Shown in pieces: positions 14,886 to 16,028 of a DNA stretch of 64,000 bases. The notes beneath the pieces are model-generated. The model saw only the letters and a program-made list of their open reading frames with translations, ran no database searches and was not told where the DNA came from. The DNA is from Ananas comosus (lineage: Eukaryota; Streptophyta; Magnoliopsida; Poales; Bromeliaceae): the NCBI RefSeq assembly GCF_001540865.1, contig NC_033631.1, positions 7,195,945 through 7,259,944 on the forward strand. Direction: 5' to 3'. Both the position numbers and the translations under genes were made by a program. How positions within the stretch are numbered: the first letter of the stretch is position 1; every line of letters begins with the position of its first letter.

Positions 14886-16028
14886 TTATGTGTAACACCC
14901 CCAATAGTCCCACATCGGATGGGATACTGATTCCAATCAGTTTATATGAGACCTACACGCTAGTAATAATAACTGGGTTTAAGCATTTTGGGCCGGTGGT
15001 TGGGCCTAACGAGTTATTGGTGCTAGCGGGTCGGGTCGTTGCAATTGGTATCAAAGACGAATACTAGCCGGAGGTGTGAGAACTAAGTGCTATGCGGGAT
15101 AAAGTGCTACACCAACGGGTTTGGTGGGAGCCACCTCTTGAACCCGTAGGAGCCACCTCTAGAATCTCAGATCGCCTGGTATAGTCTGTCTGTCTGTGAT
15201 CTGGTTTGAACCCGACGAGGACGTCAGGGTCTAAATAGGTAGAGTTTGTAACGCCCCCAATAGTCCCACATCGGATGGGATACTGATTTCGATCAATTTA
15301 TATGGGGCCTACACGCTAGTAATAATAACTGAGCTTAAGCATTTTGGACCGGTGGTTTGGGTTCAACGAGTTATTGTTTCTAGTCGGCATTTTGGGCCGG
15401 TGGTTTGGGCCCAACGAGTTATTATTGCTAGTGGGTCGGGGCGTAGCGGAAGCGTGGTGGGCCCATAACCCACAGGTCCCAGGATCGAAACCTAGCTCTC
15501 AATTTTAACGACCCGACCCGCTAACAACAATAACTCGTTGGGACCAAACCACTGGCCCAAAATACTTAAGCCCAGTTATTATTATTAGCGTGTAGGGCTC
15601 ATATAAACTGATCGGAATCAGTATCCCATCCGATGTGGGACTAACCAGATCACAGACAGACCAAGACCAAGACCATTACCAGGCGATGTGAGATTCTAGA
15701 GGTGGCTCCTAAGGGTTCAAGAGGTGGCTCCCACCAAACCCAAACCCGTTGGTGTAGCACTTTGTCCCGCATAGCACTTAGATCTCACACTTCTGGCTGG
15801 TAACCTAGCTCTGATACCAATTGCAACGACCCGATCCGCTAGCAATAATAACTCGCTGGGCCCAAACCACCGACCCAAAATGCTCGCTAGCAACAATAAC
15901 TCGTTGGACCCAAACCACCGGCCCAAAATGCTTAAGCCCAGTTATTATTACTAGCGTGTAGGCCCCATATAAATTGATCGGAATCAGTATCCCATCCGAT
16001 GTAGGACTATTGGGGGCGTTACATTATG
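14886..16028. mobile_element. Inverted TRIM dimer with one pair of TTATG target duplications
   Basis: The left unit reads on the plus strand: LTR 14891-15043, primer binding site (TTGGTATCAAAG) at 15045-15056, internal part, second LTR from 15247 to about 15439. The right unit is inverted: LTR complement 15503-15643, internal part, primer-site complement ending about 15821, outer LTR complement 15823-16023. The joint (15440-15501) is tRNA sequence. Outer ends are TGTAAC and GTTACA, and TTATG lies on both sides (14886-14890, 16024-16028), so the pair entered the Copia relic in one event. Both units carry the same internal tandem duplication within one LTR (around 15338-15436 and 15826-15935). 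The right unit has lost its PPT-side sequence near 15643. Confidence 0.85.
15440..15501 (+). pseudogene. Initiator tRNA-Met sequence (about G9 to T-stem plus CA) captured in a retroelement
   Basis: The stretch matches the body of plant initiator tRNA-Met: D-arm GCGTAGCGGAAGCG, anticodon arm GGTGGGCCCATAACCCACAG with a CAT anticodon, and T-arm CAGGATCGAAACCTAGCTCT. Differences from the usual tRNA are C to T in the D-arm and G to A in the T-stem or acceptor side. The first eight bases are missing. At the 3' side GATAC is deleted, then CA, ATT and TAACGACCC follow, which is the order tRNA-CCA, spacer, LTR complement. It lacks a paired acceptor stem, so it is not a working tRNA gene. Confidence 0.85.

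Follow-up and report, generated by a model that had tools for sequence, protein, structure and literature searches.

How did a copy of initiator tRNA-Met come to lie at the centre of an inverted pair of TRIM copies in pineapple? We addressed this question in a window of 64 kb, which is the whole stretch of DNA that was analysed. LTR elements prime on tRNA, and copying usually stops at the modified A58, with about 18 tRNA bases retained. TRIM reverse transcription is mostly inferred from end products, and a trapped tRNA copy would show which tRNA primed, that the A58 barrier was passed and approximately where copying stopped. The first-pass annotation had read the locus as cDNA that kept its primer, was end-joined to a second cDNA and integrated once. 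We find that this origin is supported, in that it accounts for the polarity of the two halves, the register of the tRNA and the single target-site duplication better than its rivals.

The block at 14891-16023 is 1133 bp long, has TTATG on either side and looks like a single insertion (Table 1). It holds two TRIM copies in inverted orientation that face each other U5 to U5: LTR A, an internal region and LTR B on the plus strand, followed by LTR C, an internal region and LTR D reversed on the minus strand. The left end of the insertion is the U3 end of LTR A and the right end is the U3 end of LTR D, both with TGTAAC. The single TTATG duplication that had been claimed around the pair was borne out. 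The only other plus-strand TTATG within 14000-17000 is at 14749, and the chance agreement of random 5-mer pairs in the 64-kb window is 0.0016. Between the inverted arms, the five longest pairs measure 65-201 nt with 89-97% complementarity. Element 2 is about 55 bp shorter than element 1; at 15643-15644 it lacks the end of the internal region, including the place of the polypurine tract, and the first 14 U3 bases of LTR C.

Table 1. Features of the inverted TRIM pair, in window coordinates
Feature	Position	Strand	Description
Target-site duplication, left copy	14886..14890	+	TTATG
LTR A	14891..15043	+	5' LTR of element 1, type 1, without the 48-bp duplication
Element 1, inner part	15044..15246	+	AT spacer, PBS-like start (TGGTATCAAAG...), internal region
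LTR B	15247..15440	+	3' LTR of element 1, type 2, tandem 48-bp units (15339-15386 and 15387-15434)
Trapped initiator tRNA-Met copy	15440..15501	+	nt 9 or 10 to 68, then CA of the 3' CCA
Spacer	15502..15503	-	AT, PBS to LTR C
LTR C	15504..15643	-	3' LTR of element 2, type 1, U5 end full-length
Element 2, inner part	15644..15821	-	internal region, PBS and AT spacer
Element 2 PBS	15802-15819	-	18 nt, TGGTATCAGAGCTAGGTT
LTR D	15822..16023	-	5' LTR of element 2, type 2, tandem 48-bp units (15837-15932)
Target-site duplication, right copy	16024..16028	+	TTATG

We assessed the identity of the trapped sequence by alignment. Bases 15440-15499 are identical to nt 9-68 of a plant initiator tRNA-Met at 58 of 60 positions without a gap (score 110), and human segments served as an independent check. 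When 300-bp pieces of both strands were aligned to the same tRNA, the runner-up scored 31 and was the piece holding the ordinary PBS of element 2. The top score among 20 base-shuffled windows, one strand each, was 27. The identification as initiator tRNA-Met was thus confirmed, and aligning the trap to this tRNA and to the TRIM LTRs, the check that had been proposed, returned the match and the joints set out below. For a separate comparison, we used three segments of the human initiator tRNA given as antisense oligonucleotides in the available part of PMC7293042. The D/anticodon segment matches 17 of 18 bases at 15445-15462, against at most 14 of 18 elsewhere. The 5' segment aligns locally from G9 on only (9/10 at 15440-15449), the whole 18-mer fitting better elsewhere (14/18), and the 3' segment matches 15 of 18 bases of the T arm over 15482-15499, the whole 27-mer fitting slightly better elsewhere (17/27); better fits of the whole outer oligonucleotides elsewhere are no surprise if the trap has lost the outer ends of the tRNA or if human and plant differ there. 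According to the text available of PMC9362929, A20, A54 and A60 distinguish the eukaryotic initiator tRNA, and the trapped copy has all three in our own numbering.

ARAGORN found no tRNA gene in the window. The Rfam tRNA model matches 15432-15502 at 23.4 bits (E 0.043), below its gathering score of 29, and we put this sub-threshold score down to the missing acceptor stem. With its incomplete acceptor stem, no ARAGORN gene and a score of 23.4 bits against 29, the copy was rejected as a functional tRNA-Met gene. No other kind of tRNA gave a gathering-level Rfam match anywhere in the window. The trapped tRNA (15482-15499) and the PBS of element 2 have the same departure from the reference tRNA, an A at position 64. 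Position 64 of the plant initiator tRNA is modified, carrying a 2'-O-ribosyl phosphate. This A64 may be the host's own tRNA sequence, a misreading at the modified position or two chance mutations. Directly after the trapped tRNA stands TTTT (15503-15506), which could act as a Pol III stop if the promoter boxes were still active.

The two joints of the tRNA differ in character. On the right, CA (15500-15501) stands directly after CTCT, and AT (15502-15503) separates it from the U5 end of LTR C. A primer tRNA attached to minus-strand cDNA has this same CA-AT-U5 order. In element 2, the ordinary joint is CTCTGATACCA-AT-TGCAACGACC (CCA-AT-TGCAACGACC). Compared with it, the trap lacks GATAC (nt 69-73) between CTCT and CA, and the very end of LTR C has two base differences (TTTAAC vs TGCAAC). 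The retained-primer register is therefore kept in CA-AT-U5 and broken in tRNA-CCA-U5 by the absent GATAC, and because of this gap the continuity of tRNA and U5 is inferred rather than seen. The earlier claim that the 3' side of the tRNA continues into U5 stands as to the order of the parts; the passage is not seamless, 5 nt of the 3' acceptor strand being missing, which that reading had not mentioned. On the left, LTR B stops after GGGTCGGG without its last eight bases, TCGTTGCA, as had been noticed. The tRNA begins at G9 (15440) or G10 (15441), one G being assignable to either the LTR or the tRNA; Gs contributed by the LTR and a difference at base C13 make this boundary ambiguous. Alignment, including the human segments, thus refined the claimed extent to a first base at G9 or G10.

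At the ordinary PBS of element 2, family-like sequence resumes after an 18-nt complement of the tRNA, which fits a stop at A58. The trap extends about 50 nt beyond such an 18-nt stretch. In the available part of PMC7293042, the human initiator tRNA carries m1G9, m2G10 and m1A58, and N1-methylation at position 9 causes reverse transcription to abort or err. Copying past A58 with a halt at G10 would be consistent with a primer that lacked m1A58 and kept m1G9.

Judged by their structure, the two elements fit the TRIM class. The LTRs are short and direct with TG...CA ends (LTR A 153 bp, LTR D 202 bp), and a 5-bp target-site duplication surrounds the whole dimer. The PBS of element 2 lies just inside the 5' LTR and is of the initiator type, its 18 nt having one difference from the reference tRNA; that of element 1 is only partial. 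The polypurine tract place holds a weak stretch, AGGTAGAG, in element 1 and is absent in element 2. None of the 18 stop-to-stop frames of at least 150 aa in the window overlaps 14891-16023. A Cassandra TRIM was rejected, the LTR being without 5S rRNA sequence: the Rfam scan of 14800-16100, taken to E = 1, gave no hit to 5S. Helenus carries tRNA-derived sequence within its LTRs in the portion of PMC10886601 available; a Helenus-type TRIM was rejected as well, the tRNA lying outside the LTRs at one joint and the initiator tRNA scoring at most 31 elsewhere, against 110 here. The arrangement was likewise distinguished from a complex element made by template switching, with a shared middle LTR and one target-site duplication; the single duplication is present, yet there are four LTRs in inverted order. 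Nested insertion was rejected, as TTATG encloses the pair and no remainder of element 1 is seen beyond element 2. Rfam matches to mir-627 and mir-725 fall far under their gathering scores, and we read them as inverted LTRs and LTR stem.

Ordinary cDNA carries two identical LTRs, and we compared the four LTRs on this background. For the alignment, made in two versions of 131 gap-free columns each, we dropped the first 14 bases, which C lacks, and one tandem unit in B and D. In each version, all three informative two-state sites put A together with C and B together with D; none pairs LTRs of the same half and none joins A to D. The versions share two of these sites, and the third varies with the choice of unit. 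At one three-state site, B and D again agree. Outgroup LTRs have mixed states at the two common sites and do not polarise the change. Among the four LTRs, the 48-bp tandem duplication is confined to B and D. The LTR types, defined by few sites and one duplication, thus look crossed between the halves, A going with C and B with D. Such crossing suggests exchange between two co-packaged cDNAs, or later inversion or conversion; separate losses of the tandem unit would produce it too.

Overall distances separate the two types less clearly. Divergence among the four LTRs of the dimer, taken in six pairs, spans 5.6-9.5%; B and D are the closest (5.6%), and the A-C distance (8.6%) equals that of the cross pair A-D (8.6%). 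The internal regions differ by 7.1% (11 of 154 compared bases), and indels of up to 7 bases separate the arms. The trapped tRNA has 2 substitutions in 60 bases relative to its reference (the GATAC gap aside), about half of the pairwise values, which is expected if all parts entered together. The values look as if all parts had entered at one time and decayed at one rate.

We weighed four other accounts of the locus. A tRNA-Met gene, a pseudogene or a tRNA-headed SINE may already have been in place, with TRIMs inserted on either side. The D-arm and T-arm sequences that hold the tRNA promoter boxes are indeed present. A full tRNA-Met gene with flanks, which the first-pass annotation had named as the observation that would overturn its reading, was looked for and not found by ARAGORN, by gathering-level Rfam matches or as genomic flank. 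The 5' acceptor strand is absent too, the left neighbour is an LTR cut within U5, and TTATG encloses the pair and not the single elements. With no acceptor strand, no flank and a single outer duplication, we rejected a tRNA gene or SINE in place as very improbable. Inverted palindromes belong to the recognised sequencing and assembly artefacts, and a fold-back chimera was considered on that ground. The arms of a fold-back are expected to be identical; here 11 of 154 internal bases, indels and the LTRs differ, and this difference of several per cent speaks against a fold-back read. The unlike outer flanks also have a common target-site duplication, and we consider an artefact highly unlikely.

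More weight is due to two accounts that take the insertion as it stands. A tRNA-Met fragment, separately reverse transcribed or broken, may have been ligated as filler between the U5 ends without ever having been a covalent primer there. Such a fragment would explain a tRNA that is incomplete at both ends, with GATAC missing at the U5 joint. For a tRNA-Gly DNA next to an HIV provirus, Gurgo and Franchini (PMC12220202) prefer self-priming and insertion as a separate event. Filler capture would however need the element's own primer to have arrived by chance, in the correct orientation and in register beside CA-AT-U5, and we judge it improbable. The remaining account is compatible with a trapped primer and starts from it: an integrated, tRNA-bearing inverted dimer would later have had its centre flipped by recombination between its two oppositely oriented internal regions, or gene conversion would have made B and D alike. 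The long inverted arms make a flip plausible, and a single flip explains the pairing of A with C and of B with D and dispenses with strong-stop exchange. It requires an extra event, and it alters only the origin of the crossed LTR types, not the trapped primer; we hold it possible, though rather doubtful. Retention of the primer tRNA on a cDNA, joining of two U5 ends and a single integration remain, in our assessment, the probable origin of the locus. Of the earlier claim of an end-joined cDNA dimer that integrated once, polarity, register and the single duplication all hold up; given the crossed LTRs, each half need not be a simple cDNA.

Starting from what can be read off the DNA (the single duplication, the outer U3 ends and the tRNA register), we reconstructed how such a dimer might have formed. 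Two TRIM RNAs with slightly different LTRs would have been co-packaged in one particle and reverse transcribed, with initiator tRNA-Met as the primer of both. The tRNA would have stayed on one of the minus strands, where plus-strand strong-stop synthesis would have copied it past A58 to about G10, beside G9, perhaps owing to a primer molecule without m1A58. The plus-strand strong-stop DNAs may have been swapped between the minus strands, so that both products ended up with a type 1 and a type 2 LTR; this exchange is a less certain step than the trapping of the primer in a dimer. The tRNA-bearing U5 end would then have been joined to the U5 end of the other cDNA, which had been trimmed by 8 bases, and integrase would have inserted the dimer via its two outer U3 ends, producing the 5-bp duplication. 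We take the absence of GATAC, and likewise that of about 55 bp at the polypurine tract and U3 start of element 2, to be deletions made at joining or later. A fuller version, in which the locus would be a germline snapshot of a two-genome complex with reciprocal exchange, an m1A58-free primer copied up to m1G9, U5-U5 joining and two-U3 integration, is offered tentatively.

We compared the dimer with known systems as described in the available portions of the cited papers. One of them is an MMLV circle in which a tRNA-Gly lies at the junction of the LTRs (cited in PMC12220202); here a primer tRNA is interpreted as having been kept on viral DNA, copied, shortened at its 5' end and sealed between LTR ends. 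That case is a laboratory episomal circle from an LTR mutant, with a spurious primer and 4 bases missing, whereas the pineapple dimer is integrated, holds its own primer, is inverted U5 to U5 and lacks 8 or 9 bases at the 5' side. The tRNA-Gly beside an HIV provirus in a Jurkat clone (PMC12220202) is alike in that a reverse-transcribed mature tRNA with CCA abuts the 3' end of an integrated element; it differs in that there is no dimer, and its authors report that direct repeats do not flank the tRNA insert. In grasses, complex LTR retrotransposons (Sabot and Schulman 2007, PMC1950507) also combine two elements within one 5-bp target-site duplication and were attributed to template switching or errors between co-packaged templates. 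They have three LTRs with a shared middle one, in contrast to the four LTRs, inverted order and tRNA at the joint found here. Cassandra TRIM arrays (PMC7215508) share multi-copy TRIM structures and the PBS start TGGTATCAGAGC with the dimer but are direct tandems of alternating LTRs and internal domains, with 5S in the LTR. In aberrant ASLV and HIV integrations with an impaired DNA end (PMC5041404), integrase acts on the good end and host joining on the bad one, as proposed here; there the bad end joins host DNA, whereas in the dimer the U5 ends were apparently joined together and two U3 ends integrated.

The available portions of this comparison literature on retroviral tRNA copies, grass complexes and Cassandra contain no inverted U5-U5 dimer with primer tRNA. 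A natural plant dimer that traps a tRNA is likewise not among the titles and abstract openings listed in the open-licence literature, though a prior report is possible, and a literature search for the exact 18-nt PBS string returned nothing. A 29-nt core of the tRNA and a 24-nt core of the LTR had no exact matches in viral contig and genome contig collections, as expected for plant DNA. Copies of tRNA beside LTRs are thus already known from retroviruses; we regard the inverted dimer with its primer tRNA as a new form of that kind of error, and its anatomy is unusually clear.

The crossed LTR types offer a testable sign of two genomes reverse transcribed together with strand exchange, and from the two outer U3 ends it would follow that the integrase acting on this TRIM is able to pair two U3 ends. 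Counts of U5-spacer-tRNA joints exceeding 18 nt across plant genomes would give a rate where there is now a single fossil. The RNA of the insertion is predicted to fold into a single long imperfect hairpin with the tRNA near or in the loop (-818.4 kcal/mol, a value without a shuffle control at such length). If transcribed, this predicted fold could feed small-RNA silencing, and, as a bolder extension, a hairpin with a tRNA in its loop could be a natural source of double-stranded RNA against its own family.

Further members of the family occur in the window. A related TRIM copy at 18963-19494 has about 82% identity to element 1 and LTRs that have diverged by 12.3%; it has no target-site duplication by eye, and a 22-bp tandem repeat closes its right LTR. 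More LTR-like pieces lie at 17548-17692, 40449-40604 and 40787-40892. LTR A contains GTCCCACATCG followed after 25 nt by TATATGA (14907-14949), with corresponding places in the other LTRs. The two motifs resemble the USE and TATA elements of plant snRNA genes, set apart as in Pol III U6 genes, and the TRIM promoter may be of the snRNA type. A relative at 40458 has a similar USE/TATA-like arrangement by eye. The assembly has single N bases at 18115, 44100 and 56379, and a 939-aa open frame at 60113-62932 is Copia polyprotein-like by eye.
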